From Neoscytalidium dimidiatum (lineage: Eukaryota; Ascomycota; Dothideomycetes; Botryosphaeriales; Botryosphaeriaceae): 64,000 bases of DNA. How positions within the stretch are numbered: position 1 is the first letter of the stretch; every line of letters begins with the position of its first letter. Under the pieces are notes generated by a model, which had not been told where the DNA came from, ran no database searches, and saw only the letters and a program-made list of their open reading frames with translations. The position numbers were made by a program, and so were the translations under genes. Below, one piece after another: positions 14,749-51,354 of the stretch. Location of the stretch: the NCBI GenBank assembly GCA_037367355.1, contig CM074701.1:558001-622000 (forward strand), written 5' to 3'.

Positions 14749-16300
14749 CTACTTTGTCTCCTCCGCAGGCGCCGTGCCCGCGGCTTCCGGTTCCTTGAAA
14801 CCATCCGCGGCGATTTGCTGACCGTCTGCGGTGGCCTGCGTGGCGGGATCGGTAGAGTCAAGGGCGGAGATACCGTCCATGGTGACTTTGACGGCGCCGG
14901 CTTGGACAAGCTTTTAGGAAATTAGACATCATCAAAAGCAGTCATCAAGAGAAAGATATGTACGTACCGCTCTGCGCAAATCGTCAATCAAGTCATCCGG
15001 GTCCTCGATACCCACGCATAGCCTGATGATATCCTCAGGCATGTTCCTCTCCGCGCGCGTCTTCGCATCAATGCTGGCATGGCTCATGCGGCACGGCATG
15101 CTGATCAGCGAGTTAACGCAGCCGAAAGACACTGAGATCGCGTAAAGCTTCGCACTCTCGACAATACGCTCGCTTAGGTCCACGTCGCCGGTTTCAAATG
15201 ACAAAACCGCGCCAGCACCGCGCGCCATGCTCCAGTGGAGATCGTATTGGGGGTGAGATTTAAGGCCCGGATAGCGGACACGGAATCCGGCTTCGTTCTG
15301 GAGGAATTCAGCGATGCGTTGTGCGTTAGCTTGCTGTTTCTCCATGCGGACACCGAGGGTCTTGATGCCGCGCATGAGCAGCCACGAGTCGAAGGGCGAA
15401 AGGCCGCAGCCCGAAGCGTTGATCGTAAAATACAGCTTATCGCCAATGGCGGTGTCATTGACGGCCAGTACGCCAGCCATCACGTCGTGGTGACCAGAGA
15501 GGTACTTGGTGCCAGATTCGTAGACGATGTCGGCGCCGAGATCGAGAGGGTTTTGCAAAAGTGGAGAGAGCATGGTGTTATCAACGGCGACTATGGCGGC
15601 GGGGTTGGCATTGTGGACTGCTGATGCGATGGTTGGGATGTCGACAATCTTGATGAGCGGGTTCGTCGGTGTTTCGAGGAGAACCATGGCAGTCTTCGAG
15701 CTGACAACAGCTTGCACGGCAGCTGGGTCCGTTGTGTCTACGTGGTGTACGATAATTCCGCCGTTCGTAGAGAGATACTTGAGGAGGCGGTTGGTGCCTC
15801 CGTACAGGTCGTCACCGGTCACAACCTCGTCGCCTGGCTTCAGAAGACGAGTGATGACATCCAGCGCACCCATACCGGATGAAACGACAAGGGCTCGTCG
15901 TGCGTTCATGATCTTAGCGAGGTGGCGCTCGAGGTGGGTGCGCGTAGGGTTGCCGGAGCGTGTGTAGTCATATTCGCCGCCACCGCTACCAGAGTCCTGC
16001 TTGAACGTCGCAGTCTACAGATGGACATGGTAAGCCAAAATTCTCAATTGATGGGCTGAGTGCTTCCAGAAAAGCTCCAAATTTACCTAAGAGGCTTACC
16101 TGGTAGATTGGCGTGCTGGACGCATTGTATTGGTCGTTGCCTTCGGTATAGACTAACTCTGTCGCGAGAGCGTATTTCCGGCCATTGTGCGGACTGCTAG
16201 GTGCGGGACTGGGTGGCAGGTTGTGGCCATCAAGGTCGACAGTTTGCATGGCCTTGCCCAAAGGGCCGGTCTTCTTGGGGCCGTCGTTTGGTGCGGACAT
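14749..16300 (-). CDS. STR3: Cystathionine beta-lyase
   Basis: PLP enzyme of the Cys/Met metabolism family. It should split cystathionine to homocysteine, pyruvate and ammonia in methionine synthesis by transsulfuration. Three exons on the minus strand: 16300-16100, 16014-14968 and 14910-14749 (469 aa), both introns in phase 0. The first junction joins NASSTPIYQ to TATFKQDSGSGGGEYDYTRS, an excellent family match. Family motifs are clear: SSGMGALDVI, VDNTMLSPLLQNPLDLGADI, and SGTKYLSGHHDVMAG with the PLP Lys. The HHDVMAG form favours beta-lyase over gamma-lyase or gamma-synthase. The C-terminal exon is a low-complexity tail ending APAEETK, so there is no SKL-type peroxisomal signal, unlike what is reported for the yeast STR3 product. 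Symbol given by function; strict orthology is not proven. Confidence 0.9.
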
Positions 16301-24709: not shown

Positions 24710-25229
24710 GATAAGCAGCGTAGAATAAGGGAATATTTCCATGATTGATGCGGTCCAAAGGTGGGAGCTGCTGCAGAAAGTGGACTGCGGAAGCGTAAAA
24801 GCTGATAACCTGAAAGACAGAAAAGAGGCTGGTCAATATTCGATGCCGGAGCAGATGAAGGTGCCGAATTCGGAATCGCACTGAGATGGTTGCAATTCTG
24901 AATCAAATCAGTCAGACGCCCAATATGCCAAATGTGGTGGCGGGTACTTTATCCTCAAGTTGGCAAAGGATGGCTCTAAGTTAGAGCGGCTCTAACAGTT
25001 AGGAGCGAACCACTCGCATGCTGTAGCTATAAGCAATTGAAGCAGCCATCCGGACGGAATGTTTAAGAAACACTACATATCTACACCCGGATGGCTGCTT
25101 CCATCCCGGCTATAGACTCTTTTTCTGATATGATTTGCAGTACAGCATGCAACATACAGAGCAACGATTCTCGGAGTTTGAAAAGTTAAGATAGATAATA
25201 AATTCCCAGAATTTGTCTACAAATACATT
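24710..25229. other. Intergenic region holding fold-back copy A
   Basis: 3' flank of the DUF7918 gene. It contains fold-back element copy A at 25037-25103 and otherwise AT-rich sequence leading to the tRNA gene. Confidence 0.45.
25037..25103. repeat. Fold-back element, copy A
   Basis: A 67-bp palindromic element. The left arm at 25039-25053 (GAAGCAGCCATCCGG) and the right arm at 25087-25101 (CCGGATGGCTGCTTC) are perfect 15-bp inverted repeats around a 33-nt AT-rich loop. It belongs to a dispersed family in this window (copies B-E below) and lies 126 bp upstream of the tRNA-Arg gene. Confidence 0.75.
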
Positions 25230-25368
25230 GGCCGGTTGGCGCAATGGTAGCGCGTGGTAAGTACTTGATATGTCCTATTTCACACACACTCTTAGCTAAG
25301 AAAACAGTGCCTCCTACGACAAAATATCGTACAGCACAAGGTTGCGGGTTCGAGTCCCGTGCTGGTCG
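25230..25368 (+). tRNA. tRNA-Arg(CCU) with two introns
   Basis: The exons fold into a complete 72-nt tRNA with anticodon CCU. Acceptor stem: 25230-25236 with 25361-25367 (seven pairs, three of them G-U), discriminator G. D stem GCGC/GCGC. T stem 25344-25348 with 25356-25360 and loop TTCGAGT. The A box TGGCGCAATGG and B box GGTTCGAGTCC are canonical, and a T10 terminator follows at 25372-25381. The order of motifs and the discriminator G resemble the yeast tRNA-Arg(CCU). A 16-nt intron lies at the normal position 37/38 (25317-25332). In addition, 51 nt (25257-25307) interrupt the anticodon stem between positions 28 and 29. This insert begins GTAAGT, has GCTAAG nine bases before its end and finishes AACAG. 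Removing it gives the perfect stem TGTGC/GCACA. With it present no anticodon stem forms. Confidence 0.85.
25257..25307 (+). other. Spliceosomal-type intron inside the tRNA gene
   Basis: This 51-nt insert in the 5' side of the anticodon stem has the ends and length of this genome's mRNA introns (GTAAGT donor, GCTAAG branch-like motif at 25295-25300, CAG acceptor). The borders could be shifted by one base because a G stands on both sides. A canonical tRNA intron would lie only at 37/38, where a separate one is present. Splicing is inferred from the restored stem. Confidence 0.65.
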
Positions 25369-25908
25369 TGGTTTTTTTTTTCATTGTATATGTTAACACC
25401 GAGAAAGAACGGATCGCAACCCATTAGACTTATATATTCATTTGATTGTATGATCCTAGAGTCTTCTATTACTATAATACGCTTGCCTGTTTTGGATATC
25501 GGAAGATCTATTTGGATAATTTTATGTTCAACTGCGTAGGCTTGTTTTCTACTGTAGACTATCGCAGAGCTGCGCGAATACCAACGCCAGGCTGCGAGGG
25601 GCGTGCCTGCAGTGTTATACCTTGTCGCCAGTCGGCATTGCTTGCGCCTACCTTCTCATTGTTTACCTCTCGACAGCTCTCTCCACCTTCTCTACTCAAC
25701 ACTCACAACAAGAACTTGCTTCTCCAGTTCTGCGCTCTTCGTTCTGTACATCTCTGTCAACTCACAGTCTGATCTTCCGAAAGGCGCAGCTCTCTCTCTC
25801 TCTCTCTCCAAAATCTGCACTCTCTGCCTGACACTCTCCTCGCACATCCTCTTCTAAGTTCTTCTTGACCTTGGGCGCTCCTCTTGTCCCAAATTCACAT
25901 TTACAGTT
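25369..25908. other. Intergenic region, no gene seen
   Basis: This begins with the pol III T-run terminator of the tRNA gene (25372-25381). The rest is pyrimidine-rich upstream sequence of the decayed gene starting at 25909, including a CT repeat at about 25789-25809. Confidence 0.45.
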
Positions 25909-39548: not shown

Positions 39549-40638
<1,090 letters not shown>

Positions 40639-49768: not shown

Positions 49769-51354
49769 TTAAGACGATCCGGAAGGAACCGAGACGTTCT
49801 GCTCAGCCTCCTTGCGCTGCACGGCGCCGAAGCGCTTGTTGCCTTGGTCGAAGATCTGCGCGGGGTGGCGTGTCAGCACTCTAATCTCACTCTGCACCAG
49901 CACCGCGCGGAGAGAAAAAGACTTACGGCATAAATGCCCTTCAAGAAGGTATCTCCGAGAATGTCGAAAGTCTATTAAAATATATTTTTTTTAGCTTCCA
50001 TTCGCGGCTAAATAATGACAGGAGTTGATACTCACCATATCGCCACGGCTCTGGATGCCGCCGTACACGAAGCCGTTCCCGGCATCCGCGAACGCCAGAT
50101 CTTCCTTCTGAACGGTGAACTGCTTATCACCAACGGCGAAGGTGACGACGGGCAGCTGATCAGCGGTCGTGCTGCTGGGGAAGACGTAGCCTTGTTGGTT
50201 GTTGTCGTACTTGCTGCCGGGGATGGCCTTGTAGATGGCCTCGACGGTTTGGTCGTCGACGAGCGCGAGCGTGGTGCCGGTGTCGGCGATGGCCGTGTTG
50301 CCGCTGCGGGTGATGGTCTGGCCGTTGACGGAGGCGGACGTGGACTGGAATTGCCAGAAACCCTGGGAATTGTCGATGTCGACGTAGTAGGGCTCATCGA
50401 CGCCGGCGGCCTTGAGGACGTCCTGGTCAATGTAGCCGAAGGTGTAGAACGACTCGCCTTTGTCGGCCTCGTTCGTGTCCTTGGTGCTGCCTAGGTACGC
50501 AGTGAAGAGCTCGGCGTCTTTGGGGATGTCCTGCTGGTCGATCATGTTCTCGATGGGCGTCTTGACGGGCGTCGGCTTGACCGTGTTGATGGAGCCCCAC
50601 GCGAGCCCGAGCAGGCCGTCGCCTGAACCCTGAATGAACTGGTCGGAGAGCTTCTTGGCCAGCTCGATGGCCTGGTTCTCGACCGTCAGGCCACCGAGCG
50701 TGATGTTGTCGGTGCCCACGGTACCCGACGCGCTGGACTGGTCGCCGTACTGGATCTGCCACGTGCTGTTATCCTGACTCTTGAAGGTGCTGGACTTGGA
50801 CGGGTCGAAGACGGTGTGGCCGGAGGACGACCCCTGTGACTGCACGTTGGATGGCAGCTCTGTCGACCACACCCACAGATCGGCAGAGCCGGTATCGAAG
50901 TCCAGCTTCAGTTTCTGTGCTGGTGTGCCGATGCCCACTTCGCATAGGTACAAGGAGTCGTTCTGGATGTCCTCGGCTGGCACCTCGCCCGAGTTGCCCG
51001 CGGCGTCGAGCTTCTTCTGGAGAACATGCTTCTGCACGCGGGCGTGGCCGCCAAGCGCTTTAGCAGCGCCGAACTTGCCCTGTTGGTGGATCTTGTTGGA
51101 GACAAAGTAGGGGCCCTCCTTGGTTGGGCCGATGCCATCTACTTGACATTAGTGGCTGGTGAAGAGTACGCGGTAATTGCAGCGTTGATTGTGCAAATAA
51201 AAAAAACAGTTTTTAGGAGGTGGACTAGTGTTCCGAGTAGCAGAAGAGAAATGCACGTACACTTGTGCAGAGCGTAGGCGTAGGACTTGATGCCACTGGC
51301 CTTGTAGTTCTTGTTCGTGATGATGGGGATGCGGGTAAAGCCTCTGCTCGCCAT
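49769..51354 (-). CDS. Pepsin-like aspartic protease (A1 family)
   Basis: Aspartic peptidase of 442 aa with the two catalytic motifs DFDTGSADLW and AIADTGTTLAL. Four exons on the minus strand: 51354-51261, 51138-50036, 49971-49927 and 49855-49769. Splices join ALHKY to GIGPTKEGPYF, GDM to TFDILGDTFLKGIYA, and then IFDQGNKRFGAVQ, all standard for the family. The 15-codon third exon carries the conserved ILGDTFLKG and would be easily missed. The N-terminus (MASRGFTRIPIITNKNYKAS) has no signal peptide. It resembles a Pezizomycotina subgroup whose members start the same way and may be intracellular or secreted unconventionally. The propeptide probably ends before QNDSLYLCEVGIGTPAQ. Confidence 0.92.

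Follow-up and report, generated by a model that had tools for sequence, protein, structure and literature searches.

The window, that is, the whole stretch of 64,000 nt that was analysed, contains a tRNA-Arg(CCU) gene that is interrupted at two places (Table 1). The acceptor and T stems of the gene are completely paired (7/7 and 5/5 pairs, respectively), and it has the elements by which a Pol III tRNA gene is recognised: an A box, a B box and a T-run terminator. The anticodon stem is the exception. With the 51-nt insert in place it has two of its five pairs, and without the insert it has all five (TGTGC/GCACA). When excisions of 30–79 nt starting between positions 25250 and 25269 were scanned, just two of them restored the stem and the loop. 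These two are one base apart and yield the same product; one of them is GT...AG. An earlier, sequence-only reading of the locus had proposed that an insert at 25257–25307 breaks the anticodon stem, and its borders proved exact to the base. The same reading had placed a second intron of 16 nt at 37/38 and had described the A and B boxes, the acceptor and T stems and the T10 terminator as intact, all of which was borne out.

Automatic gene finders handled the locus poorly. At its default settings ARAGORN called no tRNA in the window. With introns allowed it named the unspliced gene Thr, and after removal of the insert Arg(CCT) with a 16-nt intron. Rfam cmscan returned no match at E≤1 for the window gene or for its paralogue (loci L001 and L002).

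Two further features of the window were recorded. A perfect 15-nt inverted repeat (GAAGCAGCCATCCGG ... CCGGATGGCTGCTTC, spacer 33 nt) occupies positions 25039–25101, some 130 nt 5' of the tRNA gene. Three proteins encoded in the window are 84–96% identical to homologues from Macrophomina, Neofusicoccum, Lasiodiplodia and Diplodia, the genera varying with the protein searched. These three matches suggest that the fungus belongs to the Botryosphaeriaceae (Dothideomycetes) or is closely related to that family.

Table 1. Coordinates of the tRNA-Arg(CCU) gene, its parts and the mRNA introns used for comparison
Feature	Position	Strand	Remarks
tRNA-Arg(CCU) gene	25230..25368	+	insert at 28/29 plus separate intron at 37/38
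Exon 1, tRNA positions 1-28	25230..25256	+	27 nt, same letters in paralogue L002
A box TGGCGCAATGG	25237..25247	+	intact; read from sequence
Spliceosomal-type insert at 28/29	25257..25307	+	51 nt, GT...AG
5' splice site of insert	25257..25262	+	GTAAGT
Branch-site candidate	25296..25300	+	CTAAG; A at 25299, 8 nt before insert end
3' splice site of insert	25305..25307	+	CAG
Exon piece, positions 29-37	25308..25316	+	holds anticodon CCT
37/38 intron	25317..25332	+	16 nt; expected substrate of tRNA splicing endonuclease
Last exon piece, positions 38-73	25333..25368	+	36 nt, same letters in paralogue
B box GGTTCGAGTCC	25347..25357	+	intact; B-box pattern match, C7:583347-583357
Pol III-type terminator	25372..25381	+	T10
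KRR1 mRNA intron, yardstick	39609..39672	+	GTACGC, CTGAC, CAG; spliced alignment to homologue
Cystathionine beta-lyase mRNA intron, yardstick	14911..14967	-	GTACGT, CTAAT, AAG
Cystathionine beta-lyase mRNA intron, yardstick	16015..16099	-	GTAAGC, CTTAC, TAG
A1 protease mRNA intron, yardstick	49856..49926	-	GTAAGT, CTGAC, CAG
A1 protease mRNA intron, yardstick	49972..50035	-	GTGAGT, CTAAA, TAG
A1 protease mRNA intron, yardstick	51139..51260	-	GTACGT, CTAAT, TAG

tRNA genes with inserts outside position 37/38

The genome (43.8 Mb in 40 contigs) was searched for further genes of this kind. At least 16 tRNA genes of seven anticodon species bear inserts outside 37/38: three Arg(CCU), four Ala(AGC), two Ala(CGC), two Phe, three initiator Met, one Leu(CAG) and one Arg(CCG). 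They make up 16 of the 83 tRNA genes read, in a sample that was assembled from B-box patterns, Rfam tRNA matches and targeted fetches and is neither random nor complete; four of the 16 were chosen because a joined-exon search pointed at them. The 83 genes comprise 80 distinct nuclear genes that ARAGORN called, of which 13 have an insert and 67 have none, and also L144, L145 and L148, which ARAGORN missed. Identical copies with identical flanks were counted as one gene; a coarser grouping gives 79 instead of 80. The B-box patterns matched 75, 71 and 25 places, of which 24 nuclear places of the second set and 11 of the third lie outside the sample.

Numbered by hand from the sequences, the inserts fall at 15/16 (with a slack of several bases), 19/20, 24/25, 25/26, 26/27, 28/29, 30/31 and 57/58. 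None of the 16 is at 37/38, the position that is occupied in the window gene by the intron at 25317–25332. The spliced products of all 16 genes have fully paired acceptor (7/7) and T stems (5/5). Removal of the insert was required before ARAGORN named two Arg(CCT), one Met(CAT), one Arg(CCG), one Ala(CGC), two Phe(GAA) and one Ala(AGC) gene. The other three Ala(AGC) genes and the Leu gene are misnamed even after removal, and their 37/38 introns are placed elsewhere. On L140–L143 ARAGORN called no tRNA.

Genes for tRNA-Trp, -Tyr, -Cys, -Asn and -Pro were absent from the sample; their B box may be split or may differ, and so escape the patterns. Yeast tRNA sequences used as queries for the missing anticodon species gave no match, an outcome that says little about the presence of such genes. 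The tRNA set on contig C40 looks mitochondrial and recurs ~176.85 kb further on; this may be a large mitochondrial genome that the assembly goes round twice. A pattern made of the Arg exon and the donor had no match in the viral_contigs and genome_contigs collections. An iMet pattern did match one viral contig; on reading there was no tRNA there, and the match was put down to chance. An insert-free control pattern matched nothing either, so that no fungal sequence suited to the comparison came to light in these collections.

All 16 inserts start with GTNNGY, end with AG and are 51–61 nt long, and 14 of them have R at the third position; their 5' splice sites thus fit U1 (GTRNGY-like). A strict CTRAY motif, 10–13 nt from the insert end, is present in 12. 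The window insert is among the four without it, its CTAAG being weaker than the strict form. A looser motif, YTRAN, was found 8–17 nt before the end of every insert. In shuffles (n=5000) strict CTRAY was present in 1.5 of the inserts on average and in six at most, compared with the 12 observed. The probability that all inserts would be GT-AG by chance, taken over the equivalent excision frames and with uniform bases, is ~10^-33, a figure that describes the set and is no blind test, since GT and AG were put into the search expression after the inserts had been seen. A 17th insert, in the decayed iMet-like L147, is of the form GC...AG and is the sole insert found outside the GT-AG rule.

As a yardstick we used six mRNA introns of the window, which were defined by spliced alignment to homologues and whose branch sites were picked by eye. 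They are 57–122 nt long, all are GT-AG, five end in YAG and one in AAG, and strict CTRAY is present in four of the six. The tRNA inserts share these signals, and their length of 51–61 nt is at or below the short end of this yardstick (n=6).

Other classes of intron were considered and rejected. U12-type introns are marked by an RTATCCTT donor and a TCCTTAAC branch site; no insert (0/16) begins with RTATCC. Group I and group II introns have a conserved ribozyme structure of hundreds of nucleotides, and self-splicing was rejected on the mere 51–61 nt of the inserts and on the lack of an Rfam match at E≤1 on L001 and L002. Introner-like mobile introns, which occur as near-identical copies throughout a genome, were rejected as well: 11 of the 16 inserts were searched in their own genome, and each matched only its own locus (E≤1). 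Among the first 12 inserts just those of L079 and L089 resemble one another.

Terminators and B boxes of the insert-bearing genes

Spliceosomal introns sit mostly in Pol II transcripts, and the insert-bearing genes might accordingly carry such introns and be transcribed by RNA polymerase II rather than III. Several features argue against this. The A box of the window gene is intact. A run of at least four T starts no farther than 48 nt behind each of the 12 insert genes measured. When only runs that end within 50 nt are counted, 14 of the 15 assessable insert genes have one behind them (11/12, together with L144, L148 and L145; L146 was left out, its downstream sequence being too short). The exception is the Phe gene L017, behind which the run ends just beyond 50 nt. 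The same was found for 61 of 64 insert-free genes, whereas 12% of random 50-nt stretches of the window contain such a run.

Inside the inserts TTTT is rare: it occurs in 1/16, compared with 5/6 of the mRNA introns (Fisher p 0.0013). The difference from shuffles is not significant (p=0.18), and among the ARAGORN-placed introns of insert-free genes TTTT was found in 1/44. As evidence of Pol III transcription the rarity of TTTT is weak.

The U6 gene that was found is uninterrupted over its full length. At least 21 5S rRNA genes were found, all of them (21/21) uninterrupted; the search was for uninterrupted matches, and a split 5S gene could escape it. Such introns are thus seen here only in tRNA genes, and the U6 and 5S genes found contradict the idea, which we had considered, that introns have spread through Pol III genes at large.

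Further evidence on the polymerase came from the inserts at 57/58, which lie in the T loop. A pattern composed of GGTTCR, GTRNGY, CTRAY, AG and ANYCC matched six places in the genome, and 0 and 0 in two reversed controls. Two matches are in genes that were read fully (L144 with L149, L148 with L150); three were read as the matched stretch alone, and their hosts are putative. Introns at 57/58 split the B box, and both fully read genes lose their T stem unless the intron is spliced out. An internal B box, GTTCGANNC, is present 12–15 nt from the intron start in four of the five T-loop introns that could be read. In shuffles the average was 0.04 and never more than two; the other inserts (0/14) and the mRNA introns (0/6) have none. 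Two of the four introns with a B box resemble each other and are both on contig C3, which reduces the independent count to three of four. The T-loop intron of the Arg(CCU) gene is without an internal B box. The two very similar introns, both with an internal B box, are at C3:2873534-2873604 and C3:2888761-2888828, 15 kb apart and in opposite orientation.

We read the intron-borne B box as a putative replacement promoter element. Alternatively, it could be the remnant of a T arm that was duplicated when the intron was gained. That introns splitting the B box have a B box of their own speaks against Pol II transcription, as do the terminators and the A box, and we regard transcription by Pol II as improbable.

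Insert borders, paralogues and empty sites

Ectopic tRNA introns may also be cut by the tRNA splicing endonuclease at a bulge-helix-bulge, as in archaea, Cyanidioschyzon merolae and nucleomorphs. The window gene does have a 37/38 intron too, and passages of PMC4090602 document ectopic endonuclease introns in some eukaryotes. When the borders of the inserts were examined, a full bulge-helix-bulge (a 4-bp helix and two 3-nt bulges; 4+3 pairs) was found in none of the 16. Two inserts reached six of seven pairs, those of the Phe gene L017 (4+2) and of the Arg(CCG) gene (3+3). The mean number of pairs, 4.75, is little apart from that of shuffled inserts, 4.36. Nor would cutting by the endonuclease lead one to expect that every insert has GT-AG ends and a branch motif, and we consider it very unlikely as the way in which the inserts are removed. 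The sequence-only reading had offered two candidates, an intron of spliceosomal type within a Pol III transcript and a second endonuclease intron. The GT-AG ends of all 16 inserts, their branch motif and their length of 51–61 nt favour the former, which also gains support from empty-site paralogues and from unrelated inserts at one site.

The second tRNA-Arg(CCU) gene, L002, lies on the same contig as the window gene and has identical exons (27, 9 and 36 nt). At the same site it bears an unrelated insert of 55 nt, GTATGT...GATATTAAC...CTCAG, with TTAAC as branch motif, and its 37/38 intron also differs from that of the window gene. Identical exons and drifted introns are what is expected of two expressed genes from which the introns are removed. 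The third Arg(CCU) gene is split in the T loop. Empty sites were found in other species. L089, an Ala(AGC) gene, becomes identical letter for letter to its insert-free paralogue L050, the 37/38 intron included, when its 58-nt insert is taken out. L032 holds an insert-free Phe gene, an empty-site relative for the Phe site. The Ala(CGC) gene L148 is without the 15/16 insert of L113 and has its own insert in the T loop instead. In L113 (G000:C2, ~1250640-1250770) the intron lies inside the A box; GG is lost and the A box is damaged.

The insert-bearing genes could alternatively be pseudogenes, the inserts being dead insertions. Insert-free copies were found for Ala(AGC), Phe and Leu(CAG), so that the insert-bearing counterparts of these could be dispensable, and L147 looks decayed. 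Against this stands the conservation of the exons, which are identical in both Arg(CCU) copies with their unrelated inserts. Stems also remain paired despite changes on both sides of the insert: the acceptor stem of the initiator is AGCTGAA/TTCAGCT in L146 and AGCTGCG/CGCAGCT in L105 and L145, that of tRNA-Ala(CGC) GGGCATT/AATGTCC in L148 and GGGCACT/AGTGTCC in L113. Moreover, all the genes found for Arg(CCU) (3/3), Arg(CCG) (1/1), Ala(CGC) (2/2) and the initiator bear an insert. The sequence-only reading had held that another intact Arg(CCU) gene, together with the lack of a spliced transcript from this locus, would point to a dead insertion; all three Arg(CCU)-like genes found by similarity bear such an insert. 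The chance that the genes are dead appears very small.

All three full initiator Met genes found bear an insert. The exact insert-free junction of iMet does not occur in the genome, whereas the exact end of exon 1 followed by GT occurs three times. Allowing one mismatch in the junction gave 29 matches, none with an iMet exon 2 nearby. A divergent insert-free copy could have escaped this search; if none was missed, translation initiation needs the splicing of these introns. The iMet-like L147 (G000:C12:1574790-1574970), which has a mismatched acceptor stem and its GC...AG insert at the site used by the intact genes, looks to be decaying.

An artefact of assembly or sequencing is extremely unlikely, as the 16 inserts are spread over several contigs, have splice signals and lie in genes whose stems match.

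A proposed spliceosomal step in tRNA maturation

The 51-nt insert of the window gene is, with a probability of about 0.92 by our estimate from the sequence, a spliceosomal intron of the U2 type whose host tRNA gene is transcribed by Pol III, and one of at least 16 such introns in this genome. Pol III would transcribe the precursor from the intact A and B boxes through the T run. The spliceosome would then remove the GT-AG intron in the nucleus, which would let the anticodon stem form, and the tRNA splicing endonuclease and ligase would next take out the 37/38 intron. This order is proposed for the anticodon-stem inserts because the endonuclease requires a folded tRNA body. PMC10539383 describes the human enzyme as recognising the mature tRNA body. 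The introns appear to have been gained several times independently, at differing positions. Where an intron interrupts the B box at 57/58, a substitute would be supplied by the intron itself in most of the cases that could be read.

It is probable that in this fungus translation initiation and the reading of several codons require the spliceosome to process Pol III tRNA precursors. Introns would have entered the tRNA genes many times, a single tRNA may call for two splicing machines that are unrelated and work in a set order, and the introns that split the B box would carry a replacement promoter that is spliced out of the mature tRNA.

Related systems are known. Spliceosomal introns occur in ascomycete rDNA, also mRNA-type introns in a noncoding RNA gene; their host is a Pol I rRNA, not a tRNA. 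U6 snRNA is a Pol III product, and in fission yeast and other fungi its gene likewise contains an mRNA-type intron in a short structured RNA; here the host is U6 and not a tRNA. The canonical introns at 37/38, one of which is present in the window gene, differ in having a fixed position, recognition by structure, removal by endonuclease and ligase, and no GT-AG or branch motif. The U6 introns are cited in PMC5832005, passages of which also describe introns of the fungal U3 snoRNA as GT-AG with an RCTRAY branch, that is, as typical fungal introns in a structured noncoding RNA. U3 differs from the present genes in being a snoRNA and in having no second splicing system. As of 2017, the same passages name no small structured RNAs other than U3 and U6 in which introns are known to be frequent.

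The ectopic tRNA introns of nucleomorphs and C. merolae resemble the inserts in lying off 37/38, and there may be several per tRNA gene. In the relevant passages of PMC4090602 the eukaryotic non-37/38 introns are those of nucleomorphs and C. merolae, they are tied to splicing endonucleases and the bulge-helix-bulge, and other insertions in tRNAs are supposed to be pseudogenes. Such introns of the G. theta nucleomorph measure 3–24 nt (in the same passages of PMC4090602), compared with 51–61 nt here. Words with the stem "spliceosom" are absent from that review (0 occurrences). A 2026 review (PMC13149111) calls tRNA splicing spliceosome-independent, and passages of PMC6461891 contain no case of a spliceosomal tRNA intron. 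A search of the open-access literature, preprints excluded, found no earlier account of nuclear tRNA genes with spliceosomal introns. The introns are of a familiar type; what would be new is the class of gene that hosts them, and with it the architecture of the tRNA gene. On a stricter view this would be a familiar intron in another host.

Gene finders in standard use overlook such genes or give them the wrong name, so that they may go unrecognised in other fungal genomes. If the proposed reading is true, a set of nuclear tRNA genes breaks the rule that tRNA splicing is independent of the spliceosome. The many small, independently gained introns and their intron-free paralogues would be a good system for the question of intron origin, and translation, above all through the initiator tRNA, would be coupled to the activity of the spliceosome.
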